From Thelephora terrestris (Eukaryota > Basidiomycota > Agaricomycetes > Thelephorales > Thelephoraceae), in contig WIUZ02000016.1 in assembly GCA_015956445.1 (NCBI GenBank), positions 868,001-932,000 on the forward strand: a stretch of 64,000 bases of DNA, read 5' to 3'. A program made the translations under genes and the position numbers. Below are positions 386-58,044 of this stretch, one piece after another (position 1 is the stretch's first letter; each line of letters begins with the position of its first letter). The notes under the pieces were generated by a model. The model did not search any database, was not told the origin of the DNA, and saw nothing but the letters and a program-made list of their open reading frames with translations.

Positions 386-854
386 CCAGGTGTGATGATT
401 TCACCGTTTACCCCCTTTTATTTCCTTTTATTTAACGACTCATCACCACTATGTTAGTTGGTGCCTTGCCCTAAACACGGCGGTAAACTGTTTATTATGC
501 AGTATGCCCTATGCTTAACGACTCAAAGTCCAATACGTGGAACGTGCTACTAGTCAAAATACCCCAGAAGACCTGAGGTATAATACATGAACATGTACCG
601 GCGGACCTTCATACGAAGATCCCCCCTACCTGGCCCTCCGTTGCCCCTGGACGACTAGTAGATATTCAGGCTACCGACAACAAGGGATGTATTGATAAGC
701 GTCGCGCGCTGACCTCTCGCAGAAGTCAACCGGCTTATTAATCTGACCCTTGGATTGGACTTACGAAAACCATTATGTTTTACGACTCATGGATCACGCA
801 CAAATAGACAAGATAGAAGATTGATGCCAAAGAGCCACAGTACAAAAGAGTTAT

Positions 855-2054
855 TTAATCAATATCTCTACGAATCCTTTGTACCGTCTCCAAGGCTGAC
901 CTCACCAACTCCTCGTTCGCCCAGTTCTGCTCCCTAATCTCGTTCGGATCTACATCGGACAAATCATCGTAATTAGGAAGATCCTCCGTATCAGAATTCG
1001 GTTCTGAGTCAGGAACAAACTCGGCGTACGGATCAAAGTCCTGGACCGGCCATCGTCCCCTCGGCTGAGTGGTGTCCGTCACGGTGATAAGAGGAGTCAA
1101 CCTCCTAACTGGATGAGGAGTGTCCCTACGGACAACCCCAACATTCCGGTAGAACTCCTCTTCCCGAATCTCCACTACCTCATCGTCAATCGGAATCAAC
1201 CTGTTCTTGTACTGAACCAAGAGACGAGCAGGCGGAGACTCGGCCCGCTCCGGAACTTCCAATTCCTCTTCCTCAACTCGAACCTCCGGTTCGTTACACC
1301 TCCTCTGGAGATCCCGGACCTCCCCGGTTAACTCGGAGACACGACGAGTAAGAAGGACCTAAAGGAACAGGGTTAGAAGAAATCAATTATCTTTGATCCC
1401 TGCCCCCGTACCTTATCGTCCTCCAATTCTCCAGTCTTAGTAATTAGACCCCGGATCAAATCCTTGAGAGTAACGAACTCTCCCTTCAACATGTCGATAT
1501 CGGCACCCTGTCGAACGATCACGTCTTCCTGTCCTTGCATAATATCCTGGGCGGTCCCCTTCCATTCTTCAAGCGCTGCGATGTCCTCCTTCCTACTATC
1601 GACTTGGGCCTGAACATAGGCCAACTCGTCCATCAACATAGTACCAACGTTACTCGTATGAATAACGCTGGCCTCGAGGATAGAGTTATAGGTCTCATTT
1701 GTTTCCGTAACAAACTCGACCCCACGAGTCAGGAGTTCTTCCACATAAGGGTTGGTCTTGATGCGCACCAACTTGCGCCGAGACACCCTGCGAGAAGCTT
1801 GGATAAAATCCCTAAAACCTAAAACGGAACGTCAGTAGACACGCCAAATATGTCAACCGGCATCCCGAACCTAAGTCGGTAAAACCCTCATTAGGGTCGG
1901 CGGTAGCGGAACAATCCATGACATTCCCAAGAGTGGGATAAGGACGGGACCGATCACGACGAGCATGGGAGAAATGGTCGATGTTGAAGTCATTCTCCAT
2001 AACAGGAGAAACGGAAGCACGACGAGAGGTAGAGCGGATGTTGGCACGAGGCAT
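855..2054 (-). CDS. Antisense gene inside gLTR-A copy 1 (coiled-coil protein)
   Basis: Three or more coding blocks run antisense to the LTR. The first is at about 2054-1850, begins at ATG 2054 (MPRAN...) and is basic. The second is at about 1786-1400; it is long, helical and rich in Glu/Leu/Asp. The third, at about 1335-855, has a coiled-coil start, then a Pro/Arg stretch, then an acidic region containing FVPDSEPNSD and DPNEIREQNW. The gaps between blocks look like short introns. The same blocks in the same order occur in the copy at 56085-57345, with length differences that keep frame, which suggests selection at protein level. I do not recognise a known domain. It could be a regulatory or structural protein of the LTR element or a captured host gene. 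Splicing is inferred, not proven. Confidence 0.5.
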
Positions 2055-2484
2055 GTTGGCTGTATGTAACAAAGGTGGGTTTGTTGAGAGACCCAGTCAT
2101 CCAACCCCCTTTGGTTATATACCAAATGCCACGCCCCTTCCACGACTCAGGAGTTGAGTCATCCTTTCTATTGTTTACTGCGCATGACCCACATGACATC
2201 ATATGCCCCTATCTTTAGTCATATGCTCCCCTTTTGCTATTGGCTGTTAGTCAGCCATACCCACATTCCTTCCGAACATTCTCAGGATACGTCATGCTTT
2301 GTAACTGCTTTGTAATGCTCTCAAATTGCTATTGGCCGCCACACTTTCGTTTATCAGCTGATAATTTGTAGCATTAGTCACCACGTAATGCACAGACCAT
2401 GCAGTGCTGTGCACGGACCATGTTTGTCTGTGTTTGTATCTTTAGAGTAGTTACATGTCACTGTCACATCACAAATCTAAGTAG

Positions 2485-2492
2485 TATATATA
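2485..2492 (+). promoter_or_regulatory. TATA box of gLTR-A copy 1
   Basis: TATATATA sits about 260 bp upstream of the element's 3' end, in the position expected for the U3/R boundary of an LTR. The same string and surroundings recur at 57775-57782 in copy 2. Confidence 0.55.
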
Positions 2493-2749
2493 CTCAGAGT
2501 AGTTTAGCCTGTACTCCTTAGATTTGTTATCATCAGACTCTCCGTGACCTCTACTGCTGTGTGCTTAGAGCAAGAGTGTTTGAAGACCCTTGTCTCCTTC
2601 TTTCTCTTTCTCTCCATCTCTAGTCTGTGAAGAGACTTCCGATATCCTTGGGTTTGCAATAAGACGATTACTGTGTGTTTAACCCTTACGTGCGAAAGGT
2701 TTGGATAGCAAGAGTGCTATTGAACTGTAGAGGTCGCGTCGGCCTGACA

Positions 2750-3040
2750 CCAAGGGAGTGGATGGGTTGCTGGATTAGGGTGTAAACCAACCGTGGGAAT
2801 TGACCCTTGGGACTGGTTTTGATCGACATCTGTGATGGGCTGATGGCCCAGATGCTTGGGAACAGCAACAAATGTATTTCTTTGCGCAGCCAAACACCAC
2901 AAATATAATAGTCAAGGTGCAACAGCACAATTATATTTCTTCCCTTGCTTACTGACACAAGAATTATAATTTCTCAGCTGCAGCTGCTGTCAAACAAGAG
3001 GATGACGGGATTGCGATACCTTCCGGCATCCTGGTTTTGT
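2750..3040. other. Spacer, nothing recognised
   Basis: The sequence between gLTR-A and the duplicated host-exon fragment shows no motif. Open frames here are short and uninformative. Confidence 0.4.
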
Positions 3041-5198: not shown

Positions 5199-8100
5199 GG
5201 TTATGAGCCCGGCGTTGTAACTCTCTTGCTCATCGAGTCAAACGACCTAGACGACCTACTTTCGCTGACCCCAACGACCCTCGTTATTGCTAGACGACCC
5301 CTCTGCACCACCTACCTCTTTCCGACACTCGAGGAGTGCACTTACCATGTCAGACTCGAATTCTAACTTTTCTATCCTCTCCACTGTCCCCAAACTTGAC
5401 CCCGACGGCACCAACTGGCATCTGTTCAAGATCCTGTTCGCGAATTTCATGGATGGCCATGTCCTTGAACGACTTTACAAACCCGAGAACTACCCTGCCG
5501 AGACGTATGAAGACGTCGAACCGAAGCTATCCAAGAAGGATGGAGAAGACGAGAGTGACCTCCAGAAGCGTATGGACGTTTGGGAGGAAGGAGAGAGCCG
5601 GTGGAAGGAAGAAATGAAGTCCTGCAGAAAGGACAACACGAAAGCGATAGCTGCTTTAGCAAAGGTACTCCCCACCTCTGTCTACATTGACATATCAAAG
5701 GATAAGCACTTCTGCGGCATGTGGAAAGCCCTTGAAACGAGATTCGAGGCACTCACCGAGCACCAAAAGTCAAACCTGAAGGGTCACCTCTACCAGATGG
5801 TCTGCAACGAGAAGGACACAGTAGTCCTTATTAGATGTAGATGCACATTACCACGGTATCTCGTATTTGTGCAATCTAGCATGCGGTAGTTTGTGCAATG
5901 CTATAGGCATTGCAATTGGGCCTGCAGGTTGTGCAATGCCGACGATATGGTACTACTGGGTGACTGGGTCAGCTTATATAAGCCAGTCATGTGATTTTCC
6001 CAAAAAGGAAATTTTTATGGCTGACATAAGCAGGTCATGTGACTGAAAAAAGTGGATGTTGCTTATATAATCAGATCATGTGACCGACCAAAAAAGGAAA
6101 GTTTTGATGGCTGACATAATCAGGTCATGTGACTGAAAAAAGTGGGTGTTGCTTATGTAATCAGGTCATGTGACCGACCAAAAAAGGAAAGTTTTGATGG
6201 CTTACATAAGCGTCTCAAAAATGCTTTTGGAGGGGTCTTTCCTAAAAAGGAAATTCCTTTTTAGGAAATATTTGATGGATTACCAAAAAAGGAAATTTTG
6301 ATGGCTTACATAAGCAACTCAGAAATGCATTTGGCAAAAATTACCAAAAAAAGAAATTTCCTTTTTAGGAAATACTTTCCAAAAAAGGAAATTTTGATGG
6401 CTTACATAAGCAACTCAGAAATGCTTTTGAAAAAAATTCCAAAAAAGGAAATTTCCTAAAAAGGAAATTATATGCTAGAAAACTCGGAAAAATGCCAGAA
6501 AAATCCTAAAAAATACCGAAAAAATTCCCACGGGTCTGGAAAGTGCTCAAAATTGCAAATAAATACCAGAAATTCCAGAATATGTATAAATATTTTATAA
6601 AAATTATTCTGATTTTTTTTGTTCATTAAATAGCTTGTAATTTTGATATTAATGTATTTTCTGCTCCAAAAAATTAATAAAAGTTGATAATTACAAATAT
6701 ATTCATAGTCTTCATTATATCATAAAATACAGACCTGTTTGTGGTCATAAACTACCCCTATAACTGGTCCTAGACCTAACCTAACCTAACCCTAACTCTA
6801 ACCCTAAACCTAAACTTCAACCTGCCCTAAACCTAAACCTAAACCTAACCTAACCTAAACCTAACCTAACCTAAACCTAACCTAACCTAAACCTAACCTA
6901 GTACAAAACCTAAACCTAAACCTAACCTGCCCTACACCTAACCTGGCCTAGTTTGGCCTTATCTTATCTTATCTTATCTTATCTTATCTTATCATGTCTT
7001 ACCTAGCCTAAACCTAACCTAACCCAGCCTAGCCTAACCTGACATAGTCCACTTAACCTAGTCCACCACAGATCACCCAACCTAACCTGACCTAAAGTGG
7101 TCCACCTGACCCAGCCTGATGCAACTTGACTTGATCTTATCTAATCAGCTGTCATCTTATCTGCCCCTGATCTAAATACCTTAGCTGACCAACGTTTAAC
7201 CCAACCTCACCCAGCTCACCAGCACATGACTGGGCCACAGGAACACACTATGAGCTGTACCATCCCATACCCTGTATCCAACTGTCACTCAAGCACAACA
7301 ACTGTGGTGGACCTACAAGCCCACAGACCCACAACTTTAGACTGCTCACTCAGTGGAGACATCTGTTATCCAACCTCACCCATGTACTGCTCTCATCCTG
7401 TGTTCTGTGCCGGACCCCAACTTCACCACAACTCAAGATCAGCCACCTGGCTGGACCATGTGCTCTCAGGCCTACCAATCCAGGGATGCACAACTGGTGG
7501 TCTATATCAATCTGGCTTGTAGGTTCAGCCACCCGGCTGATCTTGAGTTGTGGTGAAGTTGGGGTCCGGCACAGAACACAGGATGAGAGCAGTACATGGG
7601 TGAGGTTGGATAACAGATGTCTCCACTGAGTGAGCAGTCTAAAGTTGTGGGTCTGTGGGCTTGTAGGTCCACCACAGTTGTTGTGCTTGAGTGACAGTTG
7701 GATACAGGGTATGGGATGGTACAGCTCATAGTGTGTTCCTGTGGCCCAGTCATGTGCTGGTGAGCTGGGTGAGGTTGGGTTAAACGTTGGTCAGCTAAGG
7801 TATTTAGATCAGGGGCAGATAAGATGACAGCTGATTAGATAAGATCAAGTCAAGTTGCATCAGGCTGGGTCAGGTGGACCACTTTAGGTCAGGTTAGGTT
7901 GGGTGATCTGTGGTGGACTAGGTTAAGTGGACTATGTCAGGTTAGGCTAGGCTGGGTTAGGTTAGGTTTAGGCTAGGTAAGACATGATAAGATAAGATAA
8001 GATAAGATAAGATAAGATAAGGCCAAACTAGGCCAGGTTAGGTGTAGGGCAGGTTAGGTTTAGGTTTAGGTTTTGTACTAGGTTAGGTTTAGGTTAGGTT

Positions 8101-9448
8101 AGGTTTAGGTTAGGTTAGGTTTAGGTTAGGTTAGGTTTAGGTTAGGTTAGGTTTAGGTTTAGGTTTAGGGCAGGTTGAAGTTTAGGTTTAGGGTTAGAGT
8201 TAGGGTTAGGTTAGGTTAGGTCTAGGACCAGTTATAGGGGTAGTTTATGACCACAAACAGGTCTGTATTTTATGATATAATGAAGACTATGAATATATTT
8301 GTAATTATCAACTTTTATTAATTTTTTGGAGCAGAAAATACATTAATATCAAAATTACAAGCTATTTAATGAACAAAAAAAATCAGAATAATTTTTATAA
8401 AATATTTATACATATTCTGGAATTTCTGGTATTTATTTGCAATTTTGAGCACTTTCCAGACCCGTGGGAATTTTTTCGGTATTTTTTAGGATTTTTCTGG
8501 CATTTTTCCGAGTTTTCTAGCATATAATTTCCTTTTTAGGAAATTTCCTTTTTTGGAATTTTTTTCAAAAGCATTTCTGAGTTGCTTATGTAAGCCATCA
8601 AAATTTCCTTTTTTGGAAAGTATTTCCTAAAAAGGAAATTTCTTTTTTTGGTAATTTTTGCCAAATGCATTTCTGAGTTGCTTATGTAAGCCATCAAAAT
8701 TTCCTTTTTTGGTAATCCATCAAATATTTCCTAAAAAGGAATTTCCTTTTTAGGAAAGACCCCTCCAAAAGCATTTTTGAGACGCTTATGTAAGCCATCA
8801 AAACTTTCCTTTTTTGGTCGGTCACATGACCTGATTACATAAGCAACACCCACTTTTTTCAGTCACATGACCTGATTATGTCAGCCATCAAAACTTTCCT
8901 TTTTTGGTCGGTCACATGATCTGATTATATAAGCAACATCCACTTTTTTCAGTCACATGACCTGCTTATGTCAGCCATAAAAATTTCCTTTTTGGGAAAA
9001 TCACATGACTGGCTTATATAAGCTGACCCAGTCACCCAGTAGTACCATATCGTCGGCATTGCACAACCTGCAGGCCCAATTGCAATGCCTATAGCATTGC
9101 ACAAACTACCGCATGCTAGATTGCACAAATACGAGATACCGTGGTAATGTGCATCTACATCTAATAAGGACTACTGAAGGACAATGTCATTGCCCACCTC
9201 GAAGATATGGAATCCATCTACCAGCAACTCGCCAGCCGCAGCATCCTCATTCCCGACGAGGATTACGTCGATGCGATCATCCGCTCCCTACCTCAGCCGT
9301 ACTCCAACATAATATCGTCAACGGTCAACATAAATCGAAAAATGAAGCTACCTACCTTGCCAGCCGAGATTAAGGACATCGCTCGCAAAGAATACGAGGC
9401 TCAACAAAGCATGCAGCCCCGAGGAGGAAGAGCTCGATCGAACAAGAT
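5199..9448 (+). mobile_element. Ty1/copia relic: primer site and partial gag
   Basis: GGTTATGAGCCCGG at 5199-5212 is the same primer-binding site as in the full copia element at 50-56 kb (complementary to the initiator tRNA-Met anticodon arm). It is followed by a gag frame from the ATG at 5347 (MSDSNSNFSI...). Gag is of the UBN2 type, with features such as GTNWHLFKI and a second part reading IYQQLASRSI. The foldback element 5819-9176 splits it, and it ends at 9448 where gLTR-B copy 1 begins; no pol region follows. It is broken, with one large insertion and a truncation. Its LTR is not clearly bounded. It is a different, older lineage than the 50-kb element. Confidence 0.7.
5819..9176. mobile_element. 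Giant palindromic foldback element (3,358 bp) with telomere-like arms
   Basis: The left arm 5819-7444 and right arm 7535-9176 are near-identical inverted copies around a spacer of about 90 bp. The outer ends read CAGTAGTCCTTATTAG and its complement. The flanks are a 7-bp duplication, AAGGACA (5812-5818 and 9177-9183), inside the copia gag frame. From the outside in, each arm holds short repeats of TCATGTGAC, GGCTTACATAAGC and CCAAAAAAGGAAA, an AT-rich part, a tract of CCTAACCTAAACC telomere-like repeats, a TTATC microsatellite (6957-6992; GATAA at about 7984-8022), then unique sequence. No transposase is present. The arms differ by about 16 bp in total length. The family is unknown; a CAG start with a 7-8 bp duplication is only loosely hAT- or P-like. 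Confidence 0.8.
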
Positions 9449-10821
9449 TGTCAGGGCCACTCTACCCCAACAACTACCAGTGCACTGAGCCGACTCCGCA
9501 GAGTACTCACTAGTCCAACTAGCTTGTGAGAGAACGATCACGTCTCTATTCTTCCGGTAGGTTGTCCGAGGTCACTACAAGTCAGGTCGAAATCCTAAAG
9601 AGAAACCCAACCTAAACCGTACTTCGTTCGGTTTAACACGCAAAGGTTTATCCCTACGACAGGATTGATGACTCCACCAGTTGATCGACTGGAAACTCGA
9701 GGTGTTCTATAAGGTGAACGCTGAGGTTCTATAGTTATGAGGCGCAGCCGACGCGCAGAGCGGGAGGGAGAGCAGATGGGGGATGTCTTGGATCAAACAA
9801 GAAACTCTGACTTGTCCTTAACTGCAACTGGGCTGAGAAGGGCAGAGGATTTCCTGAGGTAACAAAACTAAGGTACTATGATACAGCCACAGTTGCTACT
9901 TATACTAAAGGAGTGGCCATGATGTCAATACCCTAATACACCCTTATCAAGTCCGAACAAAGGGAGATAAGGAGTGTGAGAACGCTAAGTAAGGGAAGCG
10001 AACAAATATGACGCATGGGAGAATAAAGGACAAAGGGCCTTACTAGCGTGTGAAGGATTGCATAAAAGATAACAAATGTCCGCATGAAACATAGGGGTAA
10101 AGATAACACTAGTCCTAAAAGAAAAAGGGGCATGGGGTCATGAAAGTTTGTACCTGGGGATCACACCCAAGGGTCAGGTGAGAATCTTCTTGGATGCTTC
10201 CTTTGGAGAGGCCAAAGATAGAGACCATACAACATCCCTTGTTGTCTGTAGACGGTAACAGCATCACGGACTAGTGGCAACCTCAACGTACGTCCGAACA
10301 TGAGGAGCACGGGCCTAGACTCATGGGACATGAGGGATTACAGCTTCACCGGTGTTTCACGCTAACGGTTACTTCCACATTCGCTGAGTTAATCAAAAGG
10401 AGTCTAAGGCACTCCTTCCAAATAACGGCGATTCCTTCCTCCGGTTAGGAGACTGTGATGTGACTGTCCATGTGTGTGATCAGGGTCCAGGGTTGATCGT
10501 AATCGTAAAGTCATGAGGGGTCGTAAAAAGGGGTTCGTGATGTCATAAAGGGGTCATCAGGGTCTTGAGACCTATTTTTAGTGCGCGCGCGTTCTAGGCG
10601 TTCCGGAACGAAGTTCTTCCAAGGCCGTCCCGCGGGCCAAGGTGTCAGCTTGATGTAGTAAGCCAACGATAATGGTACAGGGGCGGAAGTTGATGTGACC
10701 CGGACCAATGAGGTTCGTCGAGGTAGGTCACGTGAAGGATCACCGATCTAGGCTATAAGAAGGACGTCTTCTTGGAGCCATCCTTGATCAGCAACACCAG
10801 CAACTTCCCCATCATCAAAAC

Positions 10822-13800
10822 ATGTCCTTCCCAAACAACTACACCTACAAAGTCGCCAACAGTATCTCCACCATCTCCCGTATCGACCGTCGTGCCGCCA
10901 ACCGCAAGACCTATGCCAGTGAGGCAGGGACTCCCTATACCACGGATGACCAGGTATGGGGGAGGTCTAGAGCTTTTTGTGTAGCACTAACTTTCCCTCT
11001 AGGTACAGGTCGTACAGCATCGGCTTTAAGCGTTGAGCTAATGACTTTTAGATCTTGGAGGTCGTCAAGAAGGTGGACGCAGAACGTCTCAGGGAGACGA
11101 TCCCACATTTGATGGGGTTGACCTGGGACGATGAGCTCTGGGTCCGGTCTATGATTGCCGAGAAGGTGATCTTCCAGATGCGGAGTAGGTTCGGGGAGTT
11201 GGAGCACCCGATCAAGAAGGAGCTCTGGTACACCCTGCAGAGGGGGATCTACGATCAGGACTGTCAGGAACATGGTATTTTTAAACTTTTTATAACACGC
11301 TCTTTCTTCGAACTCTTCTTACCACTTCTTATGTTTTGAATGCTTCACATTCCTTATCCTTCACACCCATCATTCAAAACACACAAACGCGCATACATTC
11401 ACGGCAATACGGAACAACTGGCTATACAAGTGCTATCAACGTCCCATCAAAAGTCGACTCTATCTACGGCAGGCCTCATGGTCATCAAGCGTCCATCCCG
11501 GAGATCGTAGTGCTGGCCCCTCCTCGCGAGGACCTCCCCGAACATGGCGTCACCATCTTCGGCACTCAGCTGAACGACTAGTTCAAGCCGATAGGAAGAG
11601 ACTCCTTCGAGCGGACCGATCAGCCTCCCAGATGTCACCGAACTCTGGAACACCTGGTCCCACATCTCCATCACCGGGTGACTGCTCTGCAGCACTATCG
11701 ACGTAGTCGAAGAGCGACCCTCCGTCTCCCTCGTCACACCCCTGGGTGGGATCCTCTCTTGCGAGTCGAAGCTCGTGGCGAAGCTGGATCTCCGACTCGA
11801 CCTGTCGGTAGGGACGGTTGACCCGATAGCGGAACTCTCGTCCCCTATCTCGACCAGACTGGTCACCATCCGACTCAACTGGACACGGATATGGGTTAGC
11901 CGACGGAGCCATGCGATGAGCAACACGGCGTCGAGAGCGTTTACAACGCTGCCCTGTTGTCACCGGACGTACCTCGATGGCCCTCGGAACATCTTCGGCC
12001 CGGTCGACTTCCATGACCTCATCCTCGATCTTGACCAGCTGACTGAGCTGCAAAGGGCAACGCCGACAGTTCTCCTTGTCGGACTCGGCCAACGTAGAAG
12101 CCGGAGCCGGAGTCGGAACGGGAACCGCGTTCTCTACCGGAGGTGTCGCGTAGGACGACGGATTAGGCGATGGGAGTACCACCTCGTCGGCGTACTCCAA
12201 CTCAAACGGCACGTCGGCAGTCCCCTCACCAACCAACTTGGGACCCTCCTTGCAGTTGCAGGTCTTATCCTGCAAGGACGCGACCTGCGCCGTCAACACC
12301 GCCACCACGTCCTCGAGCTGTTCGGTCTAGGAAATGTCAGCTTCCATCATTCTAAAACAAATGATGAAAGCGGCATTACCTTTTCATCCCTCCTGGCCAA
12401 CGCCCCCTTGATGTTGTTGTCCCTGACCTTCAGCCCGGCGACCAACTCTTGATGGTTGGCGACCATTGCCTCCAACGCCTCGTTCGTCCCTTGCTGGAAG
12501 GCAGCCAAGGTCTCCTTCATTTGAAGACCCTCCGCTGATAGACGAAGGACGTCTGCCTTCGCCTCCTTCACCTCGCGCTCCAAACGTTCAACCTAGGCAG
12601 TTTGATTAGTCGAGAGTCATACTCGAATATTCAAACAGAGAACCTACTTTGCTCTCCCCCTCCCGAGCGAGCGACCACAACAACGACGTGGCGGCAGTAG
12701 CCTGACGGACAGCTCGAGGAACGGTTGCCCCATGCTCCAACAGGTCCTGATCATAGATCCCCCTTTGCAGGGTGTACCAGAGCTCCTTTTTGATCGGATG
12801 CTCCAACTCTCCGAACCTACCCCTCATCCGAAAGGCCACCTTCTCGGCGATCATCGTACGGACCCAGAGCTCGTCATCCCAGGTCAATCCCATCAAATGA
12901 GGGATCGTCTCCCTGAGACGTTCGGCGTCCACCTTGTTGACGACCTCCAAGATCTAGAAGCCGTTAGTTTGACATCAACGCCGAAAGAACGGACCTCTAC
13001 CTAGAGGAAGGCGTTAGTGCGAACACACGAAGCTCTAAATCTCCCCCATACCTGGTCATCCGTGGTATAGGGAGTTCCTGCTGCACAGGCGTAGGACTTG
13101 CGGGCGGCGACACGACGGTCGATACGGGAGATGGTGGAGATGCCGTTGGCGACTTTGTAGGTATGGTTGTTGGGGAAAGACATGTTTTGGTATGATGATG
13201 GGGAAGTTGCTGGTGTTGCTGATCAAGGATGGCTCCAAGAAGACGTCCTTCTTATAGCCTAGATCGGTGATCCTTCACGTGACCTACCTCGACGAACCTC
13301 ATTGGTCCGGGTCACATCAACTTCCGCCCCTGTACCATCATCGTTGGCTTACTACATCAAGCTGACACCTTGGCCCGCGGGACGGCCTTGGAAGAACTTC
13401 GTTCCGGAACGCCTAGAACGCGCGTGCACTAAAAATAGGTCTCAAGACCCTGATGACCCCTTTATGACATCACGAACCCCTTTTACGACCCCTCATGACT
13501 TTACGATTACGATCAACCCTGGACCCTGATCACACACATGGACAGTCACATCACAGTCTCCTAACCGGAGGAAGGACTCGCCGCTATTCGGAAGCATCGC
13601 CCTAGGATTCTTCTGGTTAGCCCAGCGCATGTGGAGTAGCCGTTAGCGTGAAACGCCGGCGAATCTGTAATCCCTTATGTCCCATGAGTCTAGGCCCTCG
13701 CTCCTCATGTTCGGACGCACGATAAGGTTGCCACTAGTCCGTGATGCTGTTACCGCCTACAGACAACAAGGGATGCTGCATGGTCTCTATCTTTGGCCTC

Positions 13801-15721
13801 TCCAAAGGAAGCATCCAAGAAGATTCTCACCTAGCCCTTGGGTGTGATCCCCAGGTACAAACTTTCATGACCCCATGCCCCTCTTTCTTTTAGGACTAGT
13901 GTTATCTTTACCCCTATGTTTCATGCGGACATTTGTTATCTTTTATGCAATCCTTCACACGCTAGTAAGGCCCTTTGTCCTTTATTCTCCCACGCATCAT
14001 TCGTGTTCGCTTCCCTTACTTAGCGTTCTCACACTCCTTATCTCCCTTTGTTCGGACTTGATAAGGGTATATTAGGGTATTGACATCATGGCCACTCCTT
14101 TAGTATAAGTAGCAACTGTGGCTGTATCGTAGTACCTTAGTTTTGTTACCTCAGGAAATCCTCTGCCCTTCTCAGCCCAGTTGCAGTTAAGGACAAGTCA
14201 GAGTTTCTTGTTTGATCCAAGACACCCCATCTGCTCTCCCTCCCGCTCTGCGCATCGGCTGCGCCTCGTAACTATAGAACCCCAGCGTTCACATTAGAAC
14301 ACCTCGAGCGTCCAGTCGATCACCTGGTGGAGTCATCAATCCTGTTGTGAAGATAAACCCTTGCGTGTTAAACCGAATGAAGTACGGTTTAGGTTGGGTT
14401 TCTTCTTAGGATTTCGACCTGACTTGTAGTGACCTCGGACAACCTACCGGAAGAATAGAGACGTGATCGTTCTCTCACAAGCTAGTTGGACTAGTGAGTA
14501 CTCTGCGGAGTCGGCTCAGTGCACTGGTAGTTGTTGGGGTAGAGTGGCCCTGACAAGGACCTGTTGGAGCACGGGGCAACCGTTCCTCGGGCCGTCCGCC
14601 ATGCCACTGCTTCCACCACGCTGTTGTGGTCGCTCGTTCGGGAGGGGGAGAGCCGGGTAGGTTCTCTGTTTGAATATTCGAGTATGACTCTCGACTAATC
14701 AAACTGCCTAGGTTGAACGTTTGGAGCGCGAGGTGAAGGAGGCGAAGGCAGACGTCCTTCGTCTGTCGGCGGAGGGTCTTCTGATGAAGGAGACTCTGGC
14801 CGCCTTCCAGCAAGGGACAAACGAGGCGTTGGAGGCGATGGTTGCTAACCATCAAGAGTTGATCGCCGGGCTGAAAGTCAGGGACAACAACATCAAGGGG
14901 GCGCTGGCCAGGAGGGATGAAAAGGTGCTTTCAGCCTTTGCAGGTTTATGCAATGACTGAAAGACTTCTTCTAGACTGAACAGCTCGAGGACGTAGTGGC
15001 CGTGTTGACAGCGCAGGTTGCGTCCTTACAGGACAAGACTTGCAACTGTAAGGAAGGTCCTGTGTTGGTTGGTCAGGGAACTCCCAACGTCCCGTTCGAG
15101 CTGGAGTATGCCGACGAGGTGGTACTCCCATCGCCTAATCCGTCTTCTTATGCTACGCCTCCGGTAGAGAATGCGGTTCCCGTTCCGACTCCGGCTCCGG
15201 CTTCTACGTTGGCCGAGTCCGACAAGGAGAACTGTCGGCGTTGCCCATTGCAACTGATCAGTCAGCTGGTCAAGATTGAAGATGAGGTCATGGAGGTTGA
15301 CCGGGCCGAGGATGTTCCGAGGGCCATTGAGGTACGTCCGGTGACGACAGGGCAGCGTTGCAAACACTCTCGACGCCGTGTTGCTCATCGCATGGCTCCT
15401 TCGGCTAACCCATACCCGCGTCCAGTTGAGTCGGATGGTGACCAGTCTGGTCGAAATGAGGGACGAGAATTCCGCTACCGGGTCCACCGTCCCTACCGAC
15501 AGGTCGAGTCGGAGATCCAGCTTTGCCACCAGCTTCGACTCGCAAGACAGGATCCCACCCAGGGGTCTGACGAGGGAGATGGAGGGTCGCTCGTCGACTA
15601 CATCGATAGTGCTGCCGAGCAGTCACCCGGTGATGGAGATGTGGGACCAGGTGTTCCGCAGTTCGGTGACATCTGGAAGGCTGATCGGTCCGCTCGAAGG
15701 CATCTCTTCCTATCGGCTTGA
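10822..15721 (+). CDS. Antisense gene of gLTR-B copy 1, split by copy 2
   Basis: The blocks are, in order: a short first exon from ATG 10822 (MSFPNN...), about 44 codons, ending at a CAG|GTATGG donor; a helical block around 11050-11261 containing HLMGLTWDDELW; continuation after the nested LTR at 14561; a coiled-coil block at about 14710-14925 (EREVKEAKADVLRLSAEG); and a long block from about 14980 to 15721. The long block has TCNCKEG, a Pro/Ala stretch, basic Arg clusters and an acidic end. The same layout occurs in copies 2 and 3. No known domain was recognised. The insertion of copy 2 separates the parts. The function is unknown. Confidence 0.45.
11583..13183 (-). CDS. Antisense gene of gLTR-B copy 2
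   Basis: It has the same block order as copies 1 and 3. The first exon starts at ATG 13183 (MSFPNNHTYK...). The second block is at about 12955-12655 (LRETIPHLMGLTWDDELW), the coiled-coil block at about 12590-12380, and the long charged block at about 12330-11583 ends in FLSA. Short intron-like gaps separate the blocks at matching places in all three copies. The coding blocks align between copies, with changes mainly of single residues. It would be a predominantly helical protein of about 450 residues if the blocks are spliced. There is no similarity I can name. Confidence 0.5.
14104..14109 (+). promoter_or_regulatory. TATA box of gLTR-B copy 2
   Basis: TATAAG is followed by TAGCAACTGTGGCTG, about 450 bp from the 3' end of the LTR. 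It is conserved at 37570-37575 (copy 3) and 9899-9904 on the minus strand (copy 1). Confidence 0.5.
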
Positions 15722-15754
15722 ACTAATCGTTCAGCTGAGTGCCGAGGATGGTGA

Positions 15755-17045: not shown

Positions 17046-17203
17046 GGTCTATCATGCATACAAACAGAGTCTAATTTTTTCAAATTCACACAGCTAATGG
17101 TTGATTCATAAAGTATCTCCTTTCCTGGAATAGTGATATAATCCATGGGACATGGAGAAAGGACACCATTCTGCAACTGATGCCCCATGGGCACAAGATG
17201 CTG

Positions 17204-17665
17204 TTGTACAACCCATGGGGCATGGGAATTGGATAGCATTGTACAACCCATGGGGCATGGGAAATAGATAGTGTTGTACAACCCATGCCCCATGGAGAAT
17301 GGATAGCATTGTACAACCCATGACCCATGGGGAAAGGATAGTGTTGTACAACCCATGGGGCATGGGAAATGGATAGTGTTGTACAACCCATGCCCCATGG
17401 GGAAAGGATAGCATTGTACAGCCCATGAGGCATGGGGAAGGGATAGTGTTGTACAACCCATGGGGCATGGGCAACAGATACCATTGTACAACCCATGGGG
17501 CATGGGCAATGGATACTATTCCATTACCCATGGGTCATGGGTTGTACAATGGTATCTTTTCTCCATGGGCCATGAGTTGTAGAACGTGTTGTACAACGTT
17601 GCATGGCCCATGACCCATGGAGAATTTTCACGATGTATGGTCCATGACCCATGGAGAAAAGATAG
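17204..17665. repeat. 35-bp minisatellite with palindromic CCCATGGGG cores
   Basis: TTGTACAACCCATGGGG-type units start at 17204, 17239, 17274, 17309, 17344, 17379, 17414, 17449 and 17484, exactly 35 bp apart. The array then degenerates, and units in the opposite orientation follow to about 17665. Because 35 is not a multiple of three, each frame cycles through the same 35-residue peptide. All three minus-strand frames are open across the array (about 17024-17531), with repeats such as PCPMGCTTLSFPHG. The open frames are therefore a property of the repeat and not evidence of a gene. Confidence 0.8.
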
Positions 17666-37569: not shown

Positions 37570-37575
37570 TATAAG
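37570..37575 (+). promoter_or_regulatory. TATA box of gLTR-B copy 3
   Basis: TATAAG sits in the same context as in copies 1 and 2, about 450 bp from the LTR's 3' end. A GACGTCAT motif at 37549, some 20 bp upstream, resembles a CRE/bZIP site. Confidence 0.5.
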
Positions 37576-49525: not shown

Positions 49526-49958
49526 GGTTGTGTGATGATTTCGCCGTTTACCCCCTTTATTCCCTTTATTTAACGCCTCATCACCACTAAGTCAGTAGGT
49601 GCCCTGCCCTAAACACGGCGGTAAACTGTTTATTATGCCATATGCCCTATGCCTAACGATTCAAAGTCCAATACGTGGAACGTGCTACTAGTCAAGATAC
49701 CCCAGAAGACCCGAGGTATAATACGTGAACATGTACCGGCGAACCTTCATACAAAGATTCCCCCTACCTGGCCCTCCGTTGCCCCTGGACGACTAGTAGA
49801 TATTCAGGCTACTGACAACAAGGGATGTATTAATAAGTGTCGCGCGTTGACCTCTCGCAGAAGTCAACCGGCTTATTAATCTGACCCTTGGATTGGACTT
49901 ACGAAAACCATTATGCTTAATGACATCATGCGCAATAGACAAGAAAGAAGATTAATTC

Positions 49959-50315
49959 TGTTGAGCAGGTAGAGTACAATACTATACTACTACATGGATA
50001 CTCTAATCCTTACCTGAAGGGGAGAGGCTTATAGTTGCTAGTGGGGGAGAGAGAGAGAGAGAAGCGATTGATTCATCTATCTACACATGAGGGGTATATA
50101 TATCTATCTACTCTATTGTTGTCACATCTATACAGTGTGACTGATGCAGGGTCCGTGCGGCGGCTTAAGGCACGCGTGCGTCATACCGATCGATCGGATC
50201 ACTGATGTGATACCGTCCCTTCGGGTCGCTTTGATCAGCGCTCTCCGGCATCGGCTCTCGCTTGAAGCGGTGGAGCCGGTTGACCCGTTGCCGGGCATAG
50301 ACCTCCAGTTCAACA
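49959..50315 (-). repeat. 3' LTR of the copia element
   Basis: 357 bp, TGTTGAGC...GTTCAACA as seen on the plus strand. It contains a GA microsatellite, a TATATATA string and ATACCGATCGATCGGATCAC. The adjacent polypurine tract is at 50316-50325. Confidence 0.9.
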
Positions 50316-50391
50316 CTCCCCCTTACTAAGTACAGCTCCCTGTATAACTTCATTGGTGGGAACTGGTCTGTAGTAAGTTGGAGGTATGTGC

Positions 50392-53300
50392 TCAGAAGAA
50401 TTCGAGGCCAAGGGCATCTCTGAATTTTCTAAGTTTGACGACTCCAAGGTTTTTTGTCAGGAGATCCGCAGGATTGTCATCCCCAGGAATGAAATACACA
50501 ACCACTCGTCCGTCATTGATGACTTCCCGGATGTAGTGGTAGCGGATGTCGATATGCTTCGACCTTTTTTCAGTAACCGGGTTGGAGGCGATAAAGATCG
50601 AGCCTTGGTTATCTCCACAGATCAGGATGGCTTTTAGGTTATAGCCGAGCTCCCCCAGAAGGGTATGCATCCAGACTACCTGGCGGCTGCAATCAGAGAG
50701 CGCCATGTATTCAGCCTCAGTGGACGATAAGGCAATGGTTTTTTGTGCCCTTGAGGTCCAAGAGATGAGTCCTTTTGCCATCCGGACAAAGTATCCACTT
50801 TGGGATCGTCTCTGAGTGGGATCTGAGGCCCAGTCTGAGTCGGTACAAGCTGAGATACCTTCCCGTGAATCTCCGTCGTAAGTTAACCGGTATCTTGAGG
50901 TCCCGATTAGGTAGCGGCAGATATACAGCGCTTTTTCGACGTGCTCTTTTGACGGGTTTGCAGCATATTGCGCAAGTTTGGTGACCGCGAAGGCGATATC
51001 AGGTCGGGTACCCAGCATTAGGTACAGTAAGGAACCGATTATGGTCTGGAACCTGCTTCGTCTTTCCGGGCATGCTACCTCTGTTGATGGAGTCGGTACA
51101 TACCCGGCTGGAAGAGGAGTTGGAGCAACTTTTGCATTTTGCATCCCACATCGCTCGAGGACTGTCTGGAGGTAGGCGCATTGATCTATAGAAATCTTGC
51201 TGCCATGTCGAGTGATCCTCATGCGGAGGAAATCGGTTAGGTCTCCTAGATCCCTAGTTTCCCATATCTTCATGAACTCCCCCTTGAGCTGCTCCGTAAG
51301 CGCTGTGTGGGGTCCGGTAAAAATGGCATCGTCTACATAGATTAACGCAATTACGAATTTTCCATCTTTATCCTGGTAAATGAAGATCCCGGCATCTGAG
51401 CTCAAGGATTTGAATCCGAGCTTTTCCATGGACCGTTTCAGGGCTCGCCACCACGCGAGCCCGGCTTGTTTCAGTCCGTAGAGGGCACGCTTTAAGCGGA
51501 GAACATGGGTCTCTTTTCCTGGGGCTACGAATCCCTCTGGTTGTTCCATGTAGATCTCCTCGTCGAGTTCGCCGTATAGGTATGCATTTCGAACGTCAAG
51601 TCCTTTAAGGACCCATCCTCCGAGGGCGGCCATTGCGAATATTAGGCACACTGTCTCGAATCGGACAACAGGAGAGAACACAGCATCGTAGTCCATTCCC
51701 TCAACCTGTGAGAAGCCTTTCGCTACTAAGCGGGCTTTCTTGCGACCATCTGGTTTCTGGTCGAATACCCAGCGGTTTTTAATAACCTTGCGGCCTCGGG
51801 GGCGCTCTACCAGGTCGTATACGTTACGCTTGCGAAGAGCTTCCAACTCTTCGTTGCAAGCTGTCCTCCATTCCTCGAGCTCAGCCTGTGGTAGTGTGGC
51901 GATGTCTCGGTATTTCCATTCTTTTGGAGTTTTTCCGTCGGCAGTTGGTGAGACAGCCTTCGAAATTAAGAGGTTTTGGAGTTCTACTCCCCCTTCCCGG
52001 CATAGCCTAGCCAGAAGGGCATCCGTGTCTTCTTCAGGGGTGGTAAATCCGGATGGTTCAACGGATTTCTCGACCTCATCCTCGGACTCTGATGCCTCTT
52101 CAATCCTTCCCTCAGCGGAGGATTCTCTCTCAGGAAGATGCTGCGTGCTAGGTCCGGGAACTGGTACTGCTCCTGAACTTCGCCCACGCCTAGGTGCTAC
52201 GGAGAAATCTCCGACAACCTTCTTCCAATCCTTCATACGCCGGGTAGATTTTAATATTTCTACCGGATGTTTACTTCCGTAAACATTACCAGGCTTGGTC
52301 GGTACTTTCCGCTCACGCTGAGGCCTCCGAGCCTTGTCTGGTGACGGAGGCATAATCGTTGGCGGAGCGGGTGGCGCATCCTCAGGGCCGGAATCAGAGC
52401 TAGAGCTGGGGGTAGGCGATCTCGGCGGCTCCAAACTGGGCGCTCTAGATTGCACCGGCGTTTGCGGCCGTGGTGCGGGCTCATTAGTACGTTCCTTGCC
52501 TTTTGAGGAAGGCCTGGGGGTAGTTTTGGGACGCGCAGAGGGTGTTGTGTCATCCTCCTCTTGTCCTCCTGGAAGGGGACACTGGCAGTCACCGTCTCTA
52601 TGACAGTGATGACTGGGTAAGGGTGGCGCAGCAGATTGCAGCCGTGTGTTGCGCCGTGTACTGGTAGTTGGGCACTTTGGAAAGTGCAACTCATCGAAGG
52701 TGGCTTGTGCGGTGGAGAAGATAATGTTATTTGGTCCGCGCATGAAGATCCATCCTTTTCCTCCCGGGTGGGTACCTAGGTAGGTCATCAACTCCGACCG
52801 GGGTGCGAGTTTATTTACCCGTACTTCTTCCGGGATGAAGACGTATGCTCCGCAACCGAGGACCCGAAGATGATCTATCGATGGCTTACTCCCATTCAAT
52901 AGCTGGAATGGGGTCTGCCAGTTTAGGCGACGGTTCGGCGTTCGATTGTAAACGTGAGTTGCGTGGTCAATGGCGAATTCCCACCAGGATTGAGGGAGGC
53001 AAGCCTGCAATCTCATGGATTCTGCCTTATCCATCAGTGTTCGAATGATCCTTTCCGCGCGGCCATTTTGCTGGTGTGCATGCGGGATAGATTGGAGGAT
53101 CTCAATTCCCTTTTCCTTGAGCATCGTTGTAAATGTTAGGGACGTGTATTCCCCCCCGGCATCGGACATCCATCAGCGTACTCTCTTCTGGTACTTGGTC
53201 TCAACCATAGCCAGGAAGTGCCTGGTAGCCACAAGTGCAGCATCTTTAGTGCGCAAATTCATGGTCCAGGCGTGTGAGGTATAGTCGTCATAGAAGACGA

Positions 53301-55332
53301 TTGAGTACTTGTATTTGCGATAGGACTCAATGGGGAAGGTCTTCAGGTCCGAGTGGATCAGCTCGAAGGGGGCAGTCGCTCTGGTGCTGGAAGGGGGAAA
53401 GGTTTTATTGGTCATCTTTCCTTGCGCGCATCCAGTGCAGAGGTGCTCTCTCGGGATTTCGACATGAGGAAAATCCTTGACATGTTTCCCGGCCTTTTGG
53501 ATCACTTCTTTAGAGGGGTGAGCCAGTCGGCGGTGTATGATCTCAAAATCAGCATCGTATATGGTTTCAATTTTGGCAGCAGTAAGTTGCGCCCCGAGGA
53601 GAGTTCTGATGATGTAAATACTATCATCCTCGGTTCGAGGGTGGAAGGTAAGAAACTCGGTTTCTTCTTCGTAGAGCGAGATTTCGCGAGCACTCCCCCT
53701 CGAGAAGAGTCCGCTTTTGAGGAACTGGCCAAGAGATAATAGCCTATGGGATATTTCAGGAACAAAATAGACGGGGTTTAGCCTAACAGCCTTTTCGTCT
53801 ACGTAGAGGATCACTGTTCCTTTACCGATGATTGTTGTGAAAGTAGTCGCAGTCCTTAGAGGGATGGGCTCGATTGCCTCGTATTCAACGAAATCATTCA
53901 TATCGAAGGTAAAGTGCCGGGATGCACCAGAGTCGAGCATCCACACGGCTTCAGTTTCACTCAGGGCGGACAAGGTCAAACAAGTGTATTCAGAAGCTAT
54001 TACTGAAGAATTATGTTTATCTTCAGCTGCTGTGGAGTCGTCAGTATCGTTACTCAACACTTGAACACTTGTTCCATACCTTCCGCCAGACGGACCGGCA
54101 ACCGACACGGGGGATCCAACAACCATCTCATCACCCGACCATCCCAAGCTCACTTCATCCTCGCTTGGCGGGGTACGCGCCTTTTTGCGAGGTCGAGGAT
54201 CGACCGTCTGCTCGCAGGAGCGCTCCAGTCGTTTGAGGGTCTCAATCGTGGGCGTGACGCCTAGTCGTGCTGAGAGATCTCTTGCCTTCTGAACGGAGGG
54301 GTAGAAGGAAGGGGTCCCTGCACCTTCACGATGGACCGGGAGGGAGCGTATGGGAAAGGCTGCCATAGAGGCGAAGCCGTAGTCGGTGACCGACATACCG
54401 GAGCCAGACGCAACTGGAGGTTGAGGAGGGACGGGAGAGGGTATGGGGGGCTCCTCAGACTGTTGTGCCTGTTGTTGGAACCTTCCTCGGCCTCCTCTGG
54501 TTCCTCGGCGGTTACGTCCGCGTCCGCCTTGGCCCTGGGGTTGATCCCCGCTGTACTGCTGCTGCTGTTGGAAATTGGGGTTTCCAGGAGTGCGCTGTAC
54601 ATTGGACAGCCTATGCGCCTGCTGTCTGCCTTTGCCGTTGGACGTCTGCTCCCATGCGAGGAGGATTGACCGCCGAAGACCATCCACATCAAGCTTGGTC
54701 AGATCCTCCGTCTGGCAAATTGCCTGTGGAATGTTATTGTATGACGGAGGAAGCTTCGACATGAGCATCATCGCTTTGATGAAAGGGGGGATGACGGCGT
54801 CTTCCCCGTTGCTCTCAAGTCGGCCGATATGGGAAGCAAACTTATCTAAGGCGGGCGTGGGGTCTTGTCCCTCGAGGATCTTGACCTCCATCGCATGTTT
54901 GAACTCCAGGTAGATTCCGATGATCCCTGGCTTTCCATACTCCTTCTCGATTGCTTTGAGAAGGGCGGCAGCGTTGGTTTCAGCTCGGTACTTGTACTGG
55001 ATATCCGGGACAAGGCGCAGGAGGATGTTGCCGAGGGCTTTGTCATTTGCCTCAGCCCATGCGTCTACTTCGTCTTGGTTATCAGTGCCTTCCTGTGCCT
55101 GAGTCAATAGGTTGTTCTCGGCATCATAGGTGGCTTCAGTTTTCGGCCATACCTCGAGGGTAGGTTCCTTTTTCTGGATCGTCCTCCATTGTCCTTGCGA
55201 CATCAGGTATGAGCGCATTGGTCCAGCCCACTGTTGGTAGTTTGGGCCGGAGAGGACGGGGACGAGGGAGGTGAGTTGAGAAGACATTTGTTTTTGGGAG
55301 GTAGAAGTCCTGCGACCAATAACAAGTTTCAT
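50392..55332 (-). CDS. Copia Gag-Pol polyprotein region
   Basis: Gag lies at the right (UBN2-type, VPVLSGPNYQQWAGPMRSYL, with an Arg/Gly-rich stretch). Next come the aspartic protease (LDSGASRHFTF, about 53930), the pre-integrase zinc motif (HRRLAHPS...CTGCAQGK, about 53430-53520), the integrase core (about 53380-52850), and reverse transcriptase with the YVDD motif (about 51340). RNase H (SSTEAEYMALSDC, about 50720) is at the left. It makes particles and reverse-transcribes the element RNA in the cytoplasm. It is nearly whole, with about one break. Gag resembles the relic at 5347 only distantly. Confidence 0.92.
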
Positions 55333-55670
55333 CAGTTATCGTACGCTTTTTTGTGCCAGAAGCAAGTGAAAGGGGAAGAAGCAGTCTTTCCTTTCAGGGA
55401 TTAATTTAGTGAGAAGCTTTATCGCATATTGCCTCATTCCACACCGTCGGCAGATGTTAATTGACTACCCTCCCCTGTGGGGTCTACGAATGTGTGTTGT
55501 GCTCAGCTTTGGCTAGTCACTGTTTCATCCCCTCTTGGGGTTTTGACTTTTTTTGTTCTAAGTCCCCTTCCTACGCAGTGGATAGCGCAGTGGCAGCCAT
55601 TAAGGCGCACTAAGGTAAGATTAGAGCCTGTTCACAGCGCAGCCACAGAGGCGCAGCTTGGAACACAGGG

Positions 55671-55690
55671 CATAGCCCGGGCTCATAACC
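55671..55690 (-). other. Primer-binding site: initiator tRNA-Met anticodon arm
   Basis: On the element strand, GGTTATGAGCCCGGG follows the LTR directly. It is complementary to the anticodon stem-loop of initiator tRNA-Met (GGGCUCAUAACC), not to its 3' end. This points to priming by a 5' half-tRNA, as known for Drosophila copia. The adjoining plus-strand sequence (GAGGCGCAGCTTGGAA, and AGCGCAGTGG at 55592) also resembles tRNA 5' halves. Confidence 0.7.
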
Positions 55691-56049
55691 TGTTGAGCAG
55701 GTAGAGTACAATACTATACTACTACATGGATACTCTAATCCTTACCTGAAGGGGAGAGGCTTATAGTTGCTAGTGGGGGAGAGAGAGAGAGAGAGAAGCG
55801 ATTGATTCATCTATCTACACATGAGGGGTATATATATCTATCTACTCTATTGTTGTCACATCTATACAGTGTGACTGATGCAGGGTCCGTGCAGCGGCTT
55901 AAGGCACGCGTGCGTCATACCGATCGATCGGATCACTGATGTGATACCGTCCCTTCGGGTCGCTTTGATCAGCGCTCTCCGGCATCGGCTCTCGCTTGAA
56001 GCGGTGGAGCCGGTTGACCCGTTGCCGGGCATAGACCTCCAGTTCAACA
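55691..56049 (-). repeat. 5' LTR of the copia element
   Basis: 359 bp and almost identical to the other LTR. On the element's strand it ends ...CTCAACA and is followed directly by the primer-binding site. Confidence 0.9.
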
Positions 56050-56084
56050 AATTCCTTGGAAGCCCAATAGTACAAAAGAGTTAT

Positions 56085-57345
56085 TTAATCAATATCTCTG
56101 CAAATCCTTTGTACTACTTCCAAGGCCGATCTCACCAACTCCTCATTCAACCAATTCTGCTCCCTAATCTCGTTCGGGTCCACATCCGACAGGTCATCAT
56201 AATCTGGAAGCTCTGTATCAGAATTCGGTTCGCTATCAGGAACGAACTCGGCATACGGATCATACTCCAGGGCAGGCCATTGACGACGACTACCCCAAGG
56301 AGTAGAAACGAACTCAGGACGAGGAGTGTCCCTACGGACGACTCCTACGTTCTGGTAGAACTCGTCGCTCCCAATCTCAATGACCTCATCATCAACGGGA
56401 ACCAACCTGTTCTCGTAACGGACCAACAGACGAGCGGGCGGCGACTCGGCCCGATTAGGAATTATCGGCAACCCGGCCCGATGCGGAACTTCCAACTCCT
56501 CTTCCTCGACTTGGACCTCCGGCTCGTTACACCTCCTCTGGAGATCCCGGACCTCTCCGGTCAACTCCGAGATACGACGAGTAAGGCGAACCTAAAGGAA
56601 TAGGGTTAGAAGATAACAAAAACCTTCAACCCCTACCCCTTACCTTGTCGTCCTCCAATTCTCCGGTCTTAGTAACCAGAGCCCGGACCAAGTCTTTGAG
56701 AGTAGTCACCTCTCCCTAAAAAGGAGATGTTGGGTTAGAAAAGTCAATTACCTCCCACCCCACATTTACCTTCAACAAATCAATGTTGGCGCCTTGCCGA
56801 ACCACGCTATCTTCTTGTCCATGAATGACCCCTTGCATATCTTCCTTCCAATTCTCCAAGGCTTCTATCTCTTCGCGACGACCATCAATACGTTCGTTGA
56901 CATGAGCCACTTCATCCATTAACATGGACCCAACGTTCCCCGTATGGAGAACGCTGGCCTCCAACATGGAGTTGAAGGTCTCGTTGGACTCTGTCACGAA
57001 CTCGACACCCCTATTGAGGAGTTCGCTCGCATATGGGTTGGTCTCAATGCGCGCCAACTTGCGCCGAGATACCCTTCGAGCAGCCTGGAGAAAGTCCCTG
57101 AAACCTAAAAGGAGTTAGTTCGCTTTCTTAAATCAGAATGCGCAACCAGACCCCCCACCTAGATCAGAGAACCCTTCATTAGGGTCAGCGGTGGCAGTCC
57201 GGTCCATAACAGCTCCCAAAGTGGGATAAGGACGGGAAGGATCCCGACGAGCATGGGAGAAGCGGTCGATATTGTAGTTGTTCTCCTGAACAGGAGAGTA
57301 AGAGGAAGAGCGACGGGTGGGATTGCGAGTAGAGGCACGAGGCAT
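56085..57345 (-). CDS. Antisense gene inside gLTR-A copy 2
   Basis: It has the same blocks as in copy 1: a first exon from ATG 57345 (MPRAST...), a helical block at about 57057-56715 (GVEFVTESNETFNSMLEASV), and a coiled-coil/charged block at about 56595-56085 (LTGEVRDLQRRC, FVPDSEPNSDTELPDYDDLS). Relative to copy 1, substitutions and in-frame length changes are spread through the blocks, while the borders stay put. The copia insertion lies just beyond its 3' end, so the coding blocks are untouched. The function is unknown. Confidence 0.5.
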
Positions 57346-57774
57346 GTTGGCAGTGTGTAACAAAGGTGGGTTTGTTGGAAGACCAGTCATCCAACCCCCT
57401 TTGGTTATATACCAAATGCCACGCCCCTTTCACGACTCAGGAGTTGAGTCATCTTTTCTATTGTTTACTGCGCATGACCCACATGACATCATATGCCCCT
57501 ATCTTTAGTCATATGCTCCCCTTTTGCCATTGGCTGTTAGTCAGCCATATCCACATTCCTTCCGAACATTCCCATGATACGTCATGCTTTGTAACTGCTT
57601 TGTAATGCTCTCAAATTGCTATTGGCCACCACACTTTCGTTTATCAGCTGATAATTTGTAGCATTAGTCACCACGTAACGCACAGACCATGCAGTGCTGT
57701 GCACGGACCATGCTTGTCTGTGTTTGTATCATTAGTGTAGTTACATGTCACTGTCACGTCACAAATCTAAGTAG

Positions 57775-57782
57775 TATATATA
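57775..57782 (+). promoter_or_regulatory. TATA box of gLTR-A copy 2
   Basis: TATATATA occurs in the same context (CTAAGTAG...CTCAGAGTAG) and at the same distance from the 3' end as in copy 1. Confidence 0.55.
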
Positions 57783-58044
57783 CTCAGAGTAGTTTAGCCT
57801 GTACTCCTTAGATTTGTTATCATCAGACTCTCCGTGACCTCTACTGCTGTGTGCTTAGAGCAAGAGTGCCTGAAGACCCTTGTCTCCTTCTTTCTCCTCT
57901 TCTCCATCTAAGTCTGTGAAGAGACTTCTGATATCCCTGGGTTTGCAACAGGGTTATAACTGTGTGTTTGACCCCTGCGTGTGATAGGTTTGGATAACAA
58001 GAGTGTTATTGAACTGTAGAGGTCGCGTCGGCCTGACAGGTTGA

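Follow-up and report, generated by a model that had tools for sequence, protein, structure and literature searches.

A unit with LTR-type ends lies at positions 391 to 2749

The window analysed here is a stretch of 64,000 nucleotides (G000:C8:868001-932000; C-numbers denote contigs and L-numbers loci of the unit) in the 40.6-Mb genome of the ectomycorrhizal basidiomycete Thelephora terrestris. It contains two copies of a unit with LTR-type ends and an antisense gene, with the following features.

386..390: left target-site repeat of copy 1, CCAGG
391..2749, plus strand: copy 1 of the unit (gLTR-A), starting TGTGATGA and ending CCTGACA
391..770, plus strand: left noncoding flank of copy 1, highly alike between copies
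855..1358, minus strand: exon 4 of the antisense gene, ended by the TAA at 857-855
1359..1411, minus strand: intron 3 (predicted; the second of copy 1), 53 nt, GT...AG, with a CTAAC motif before its 3' end
1412..1818, minus strand: exons 2 and 3, fused in copy 1, where the codon-174 intron is absent
1819..1870, minus strand: intron 1 (predicted), 52 nt, GT...AG, with two sequence types among copies
1871..2054, minus strand: exon 1, ATG at 2054
2091..2749, plus strand: right noncoding flank of copy 1, highly alike between copies
2113..2124, minus strand: TATA-like box of the antisense gene, putative promoter
2485..2492, plus strand: sense TATA box TATATATA, putative LTR-like promoter
2750..2754: right target-site repeat of copy 1, CCAAG, one mismatch to the left repeat
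49531..58038, plus strand: copy 2 of the unit, GGTTG repeated on both sides, split by a Copia element
49959..56049, minus strand: Copia element nested in copy 2, LTRs at 49959-50315 and 55691-56049, target-site repeat AATTC
56085..57345, minus strand: antisense gene of copy 2, three predicted introns, 366 codons open

The terminal sequences of copy 1 are TGTGATGATTTC on the left and GGCCTGACA on the right. The unit ends have the TG...CA form and share only about 5 bp as a terminal inverted repeat; no inverted repeats of at least 10 bp, the hallmark of TIR DNA transposons, were found there. The right flank combines a predicted antisense promoter, the sense TATA box and an R/U5-like end. Among 46 aligned copies, the sense TATA box was kept in 44 and was 2 bp shorter in the other two, while the TATA-like box at 2113-2124 was exact in 43; the TATA region has 202 matches in the genome. 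An earlier note on this DNA had described TG...CA ends and a TATA box of LTR type, both of which are indeed present at 391-2749, as well as 5-bp target-site duplications (TSDs). The latter are real, with one mismatch in copy 1 (CCAGG/CCAAG) and none in copy 2 (GGTTG/GGTTG).

Copy 2 spans 49531-58038 because the Copia element sits within it; this element is outside the unit proper, and its family served as a control (see below). Copies 1 and 2 do not form the LTR pair of a single 57-kb element, a possibility ruled out by the separate flanking repeat of each. A region on another contig, G000:C22:129749-138222, resembles copy 2, with a Copia element inside, the TSD GGTTG and identical neighbouring bases, and is either a segmental duplication or an alternative haplotype.

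The window has several other repeats. Two pairs of inverted repeats of about 1 kb are 100% complementary, one at 5819-6900 and 8095-9176 (1194 nt apart), the other at 61818-62821 and 62997-64000 (175 nt apart). Long direct and inverted duplicated segments, 87-99% alike and with ORFs of about 248 aa, occur at 9448-15754 and 34724-38023, and a tandem repeat with a 35-bp period lies at 17102-17611. Two overlapping long ORFs at 27866-32298 presumably encode a Helitron replication-helicase protein.

The antisense gene is open in most copies examined and appears to be under purifying selection

The antisense gene of copy 1 runs on the minus strand from the ATG at 2054 to the TAA at 855 (364 codons) and is predicted to be spliced. 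The gene of copy 2 differs from it by a third intron, at codon 174, and by in-frame length changes, in agreement with the earlier description of a multi-block antisense gene kept open in both copies (364 and 366 codons). In 47 aligned gene copies, picked by nearly exact ends and full length, the introns have GT...AG borders and indels that are not divisible by three, while the reading frame of the exons is preserved. Intron 2, at codon 174, is present in 41 of the 47 and precisely absent from the other 6, which belong to different subfamilies.

A published genome paper includes T. terrestris (PMC7550596). The T. terrestris annotation has the gene of copy 1 as BJ322DRAFT_1023869 (P0030), identical over 96% of the query, and public gene models agree with the start and splicing as read here over most of the length. 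At the C-terminus, two of the eight T. terrestris models compared end as we read them, four (including P0030) have a different predicted splice and two run into other sequence. Model P0031 omits seven residues near codon 165.

One extra stop each interrupts the spliced frame in L003, L040 and L044, and the other 44 of the 47 copies are open; none has a frameshift. A wider protein search brought up further copies whose exon 4 contains stops, such as C10:650993, which has three. Among the 44 open copies, to which the substitution analyses were confined, the median dN was 0.087 and the median dS 0.501, with a ratio of 0.163 (946 pairs). The ratio of replacing to silent changes was 1.84 for private variants, against a neutral expectation of 2.50, and it was 1.04 for variants found in 2-3 copies, 0.53 in 4-10 copies and 0.59 in 11-22 copies. 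Private indels, counted in 46 copies (copy 2 being left out), had a frame-breaking length in 15 of 18 cases in the flanks and 8 of 8 in introns, compared to none of 5 in exons. Given 1363 noncoding and 1134 exon columns, chance alone would place all 23 frame-breaking indels outside exons about once in a million cases. Judging from these sequence comparisons (dN/dS of 0.16 and exons free of frame-breaking private indels), the antisense gene is under purifying selection; the equal rates of silent and replacing change that would have spoken against the earlier proposal were not seen in the 44 open copies.

About 220 copies, most of those read at both ends having their own target-site duplication

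A search with the unit ends retrieved 222 left and 217 right ends genome-wide, corresponding to about 220 copies. The reversed end patterns gave 0 matches, placing the forward counts of 217 and 222 beyond chance. Both ends were read for 87 copies, of which 79 have a perfect 5-bp TSD, 4 have one mismatch and 4 are unmatched; these were examined in batches of 51 (46 perfect, 3 with a mismatch, 2 unmatched), 27 (25, 1 and 1) and 9 (8, 0 and 1). The ends of one of the 25 perfect copies in the second batch, C23:834428-836824, were paired by eye. The TSD count excludes three copies that appeared twice where loci overlap, the duplicate of copy 2 on C22, an end pair on C18 that is 20.5 kb apart and two lone left ends on C23. 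Contigs C24-C60 contribute 6 of the 87 copies to this count and to the pairing count below. The four unmatched copies (C18:134078-136516, C2:1201072-1203776, C1:198509-200898 and C4:1109970-1114817) are likely recombinants; their flanking 5-mers do not complement one another.

At L013, one unit is inserted into another, with host sequence on both sides and the duplication CTTTG, and the unfilled site of this nested insertion is visible in copy 1. L013 is a clean insertion of a single unit.

No paired form of the unit was found in the copies examined

The earlier note had also proposed that the unit would be present twice in each full element and had suggested a genome search for pairs flanking gag-pol, the lack of which would refute the idea. 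No such pairs emerged: none of the 87 copies with both ends read was found paired around an internal region, and on C1-C22 none of 91 rve (integrase) hits lies between exact unit ends on the same strand within 15 kb. As far as it was taken, the search thus goes against this part of the proposal. The LTR reading as a whole is supported with regard to the ends, the promoter-like sequence and the selected antisense gene, and is not supported with regard to paired copies.

The test for bracketed hits used 86 left and 83 right exactly matching ends, complete for C1-C22, and took in 91 of the 144 rve hits and 67 of the 120 RVT_1 hits of the whole genome. Three of the 67 RVT_1 hits, on C3, C4 and C7, do lie between same-strand unit ends, and were rejected as internal regions, since next to each lies at least one copy with a TSD of its own (C3:999769, C4:83678 and both C7 copies). 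Same-strand neighbours about 4-10 kb apart, the spacing of a full element, likewise have their own repeats where both copies were read (C7, C23, C3 and C56); the exceptions are two places, on C1 and C4, where an unmatched copy forms one half of the pair of neighbours. L014 and L024 also have same-strand neighbours with TSDs of their own, one L024 copy with a mismatch. A TRIM or LARD arrangement, with two LTRs around a short or noncoding internal region, was therefore not found among the same-strand neighbours, since they have their own TSDs apart from the unmatched copies on C1 and C4.

The 400-bp flanks of 51 copies contain shared repeats of many kinds. Among these 102 flanks, a same-orientation junction is common to one pair only, which lies on a 98.8% palindrome, and apart from this pair no shared junction flank with gag-pol, a PBS or a PPT adjoins the unit in the 51 copies. 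The pair, L009 and L031, has an identical downstream flank and was considered as two 5' LTRs with an internal region, and rejected: the intervening DNA is the palindrome itself (C1:200800-203700). This palindrome resembles the inverted repeats of the window, which may be real or assembly artefacts. Inverted pairs on C7, C11 and C14 were considered as the arms of giant fold-back elements and were also rejected, as the arms read at both ends (both C7 copies, both C11 copies and one of two on C14) have their own TSD.

These results bear on a close rival to the interpretation that we develop below, namely that the copies are solo LTRs of a retrotransposon with 2.4-kb LTRs and the antisense gene in U3, which inserted many times and lost its internal regions by LTR-LTR recombination in the assembled strain, intact elements being left in other places or in DNA that was not assembled or sampled. 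We regard this as quite possible, if somewhat short of even. The TG...CA ends, the 5-bp TSD, the conserved TATA box and the R/U5-like end are all as it predicts. There is also a precedent in the S. pombe reference strain, in which Tf1 is known only as solo LTRs. Against it stand the absence of pairing in 87 copies, many of which look young (see below), and the lack of a common LTR-internal junction outside the palindrome pair.

A control from the same genome argues in the same direction. The Copia family nested in copy 2 has 100 LTR ends and 45 internal markers, and 22 of its same-strand LTR pairs are 4.5-11 kb apart, 20 with a marker between them that identifies them as full-length elements. 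If the share seen in this family (20 full elements of about 80 insertions) is applied to the unit, finding none in 87 copies is very unlikely. However, long LTRs are expected to recombine to the solo form more readily than the 0.36-kb LTRs of the control, which weighs against a single-unit reading; the longer repeat of the unit may have turned solo faster. Moreover, with 6 of the 87 copies on C24-C60, these contigs may harbour a rare full-length element, as may a gap or other strains. Finally, the terminal 15-mers, with one mismatch allowed, gave 204 and 220 matches (1 and 0 for the reversed controls; positions were taken for the first 100 of each set). This is no more than the unit's own ends account for, so there is no sign of a gag-pol family or any other second family with the same termini, again a point against solo LTRs.

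The protein is a predicted coiled coil with relatives in T. terrestris and in ENA or JGI records

Neither a Pfam family nor a PDB chain related to the 364-aa protein was found at a convincing score. An AlphaFold2 model of exons 2-3 (135 of 364 residues, from six sequences; mean pLDDT 85.9, pTM 0.35) consists of helices at 2-21 and 25-134, the latter a single helix of 110 residues, and has no RNase H-like fold within this part. No domain or known fold thus came to light with Pfam, PDB and the exon 2-3 model. The prediction for the product is a long coiled coil, basic in its N-terminal part and acidic in its C-terminal part.

A search with the full query returned 73 proteins, 72 from T. terrestris and one ENA record; when exon 4 served as the sole query, short JGI records came up as well. 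The best 120 of 454 matches in a profile search are from T. terrestris or from records labelled ena or jgi. The ENA records include a second family, about 34% identical to the unit's protein and with several members of 311-313 aa. It seems to lack introns at the places of introns 1 and 3, although the records may be DNA or cDNA. This apparently intron-poor family comprises P0092-P0112 and P0114-P0137, on contigs of up to 24.6 kb, and one relative, P0097, had no match in viral contigs.

Two further explanations can be weighed with these data. The gene could belong to a host multigene family that hitch-hikes in LTRs and is selected for a host function, in keeping with its purifying selection and its annotation as host genes. 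We consider this very improbable: 46 of the 47 gene copies lie in units whose flanking 5-mers match or are one base off, and the relatives come from T. terrestris in 72 of 73 single-sequence hits and, among the best 120 of 454 profile matches, from that species or from ena/jgi records. Somewhat less remote, but still improbable, is a DNA transposon of an undescribed kind, with the coiled-coil protein as part of its own transposase. Mu- and Tn7-like elements have TG...CA ends and a 5-bp TSD, and such an element would account for single units with one recognised gene, for ends and gene that are alike or constrained and for the failure to find an LTR partner. On the other hand, the inverted repeat at the ends is very short (about 5 bp), Pfam and PDB yielded no transposase match, and the 135 modelled residues are predicted to form long helices with no RNase H-like fold.

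The gene forms an island of diversity between homogeneous flanks

The 44 open copies have a median of 3 private changes per 1.1-kb CDS, five of them having none; copy 1 has 69. Whole-unit identity to the nearest sampled relative is mostly 92-96%, and the closest pair, L019 and L020, is 99.6% identical with different flanks. Most insertions would seem to be young, given that 79 of 87 copies have a perfect TSD, but age figures are rough, since recombination between copies, in which intron haplotypes reassort, blurs the clock.

Pairs of copies (46 compared) differ on average by 0.044 in 391-830 and by 0.031-0.044 in 2055-2749, compared to 0.12-0.18 in exons and 0.16 and 0.32 in introns, with steps in diversity at about 770-810 and 2070. 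We compared classes of variants in 42 copies, excluding the four deepest. Per 100 bp, the flanks (391-770 and 2091-2749) have 10-16 single-copy variants and the exons 16-22; for variants present in at least 4 copies, the figures are 5-9 and 23-39, respectively (about 6 vs. 30 when pooled). The contrast between exons and flanks is thus about 1.4-fold for new mutations and about 5-fold for shared variants. One explanation is that the roughly 1 kb of flank is under tighter constraint than amino-acid sites; the other is an exchange of gene cassettes between copies whose backbone has been homogenised.

Cassette exchange is supported by the introns: all six combinations of intron 1 (types A and B) and intron 2 (types X, Y or absent) were found (AX 19, AY 11, A-absent 3, BX 5, BY 6 and B-absent 3). 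Distances in exons 1-3 correlate with those in exon 4 at only 0.33, and those of flanks and gene at 0.43, indicating that linkage is loose, but not lost. Mosaic copies are known for LTRs from a study of Podospora (PMC10787394), a point in favour of the solo-LTR explanation.

Reverse transcripts of the antisense mRNA could explain both cassette exchange and the loss of intron 2. In its strongest form, the proposal would be an LTR-only transposon, a single unit whose spread is driven by the coiled-coil protein of its sole gene, read antisense, and whose cassettes are swapped via such transcripts. We think this unlikely, though it would explain the diversity island at about 771-2090, which is the stretch expected to be transcribed antisense, as well as the exact intron loss across subfamilies.

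A mobile element that may spread as a single unit

The interpretation that we favour, and give about an even chance, is that the roughly 220 copies form a 2.4-kb family with LTR-type ends that spreads singly, rather than as half of a retrotransposon, with integrase supplied in trans. What favours a single-unit element over solo LTRs is that ends and gene are selected together, that the ends are of retroelement type and that no paired form was found. For the steps involved we infer a DNA intermediate, a helper and a role for the protein. An integrase of retroelement type, acting in trans, would join the DNA of the single unit to its target; this DNA might arise by recombination of the two LTRs in unintegrated cDNA or by a DNA-only route. 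To propagate, the unit would depend on the antisense product, which might, for instance, act as a scaffold that binds DNA or RNA or regulate the sense promoter. On the opposing side, the TATA box, TG...CA and asymmetric ends are exactly the features of solo LTRs; nothing in the unit was recognised as an integrase, reverse transcriptase or transposase, nor was a helper found.

To our knowledge, LTRs are regarded as regulatory ends that need an internal region in order to spread. If this interpretation is true, a young, high-copy family of single LTR-like units with a selected gene would mean that an LTR can turn into an independent element, and that every solo LTR takes a copy of a gene along. 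Cassettes that are apparently exchanged over a uniform backbone would offer a testable case of recombination, or of intron loss, through antisense RNA.

Comparison with known systems

Among the open-licence papers listed by our literature searches, none reports, judging by its title and the start of its abstract, a spliced gene that lies antisense within the LTR of a fungus. The unit is like solo Ty3/Gypsy or Ty1/Copia LTRs in its TG...CA ends, 5-bp TSD, TATA box followed by an R/U5-like stretch and occurrence as single copies; it differs from them in that no full-length partner was found and in its selected antisense gene, predicted to be spliced. The sag gene of MMTV, like that of the unit, is a protein gene within an LTR, but it lies on the sense strand and comes from a full retrovirus. 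The HBZ gene of HTLV-1 is spliced and encodes a bZIP domain. HBZ shares with the unit an LTR-driven antisense gene, and differs in belonging to a full retrovirus (PMC10186651). The plant Gypsy element Retand has antisense TRP28 ORFs, for which a regulatory DNA-binding role is proposed; here the resemblance is the antisense ORF and the difference its position between pol and the 3' LTR, outside the LTR itself (PMC11963269).

A parallel in LTR structure can be drawn with the crapaud LTRs of Podospora (PMC10787394). There, too, variation is concentrated in U3 before the TATA box and the 3' half is conserved, many copies are solo or fragmentary and gene conversion has been proposed. Crapaud differs in having full copies, 150 vs. 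1455 terminal repeats retrieved; its two ORFs are gag and pol, and the word 'antisense' does not occur in the main text. In the unit, by contrast, it is an antisense gene that makes up the variable island, and the sequence to either side is conserved.
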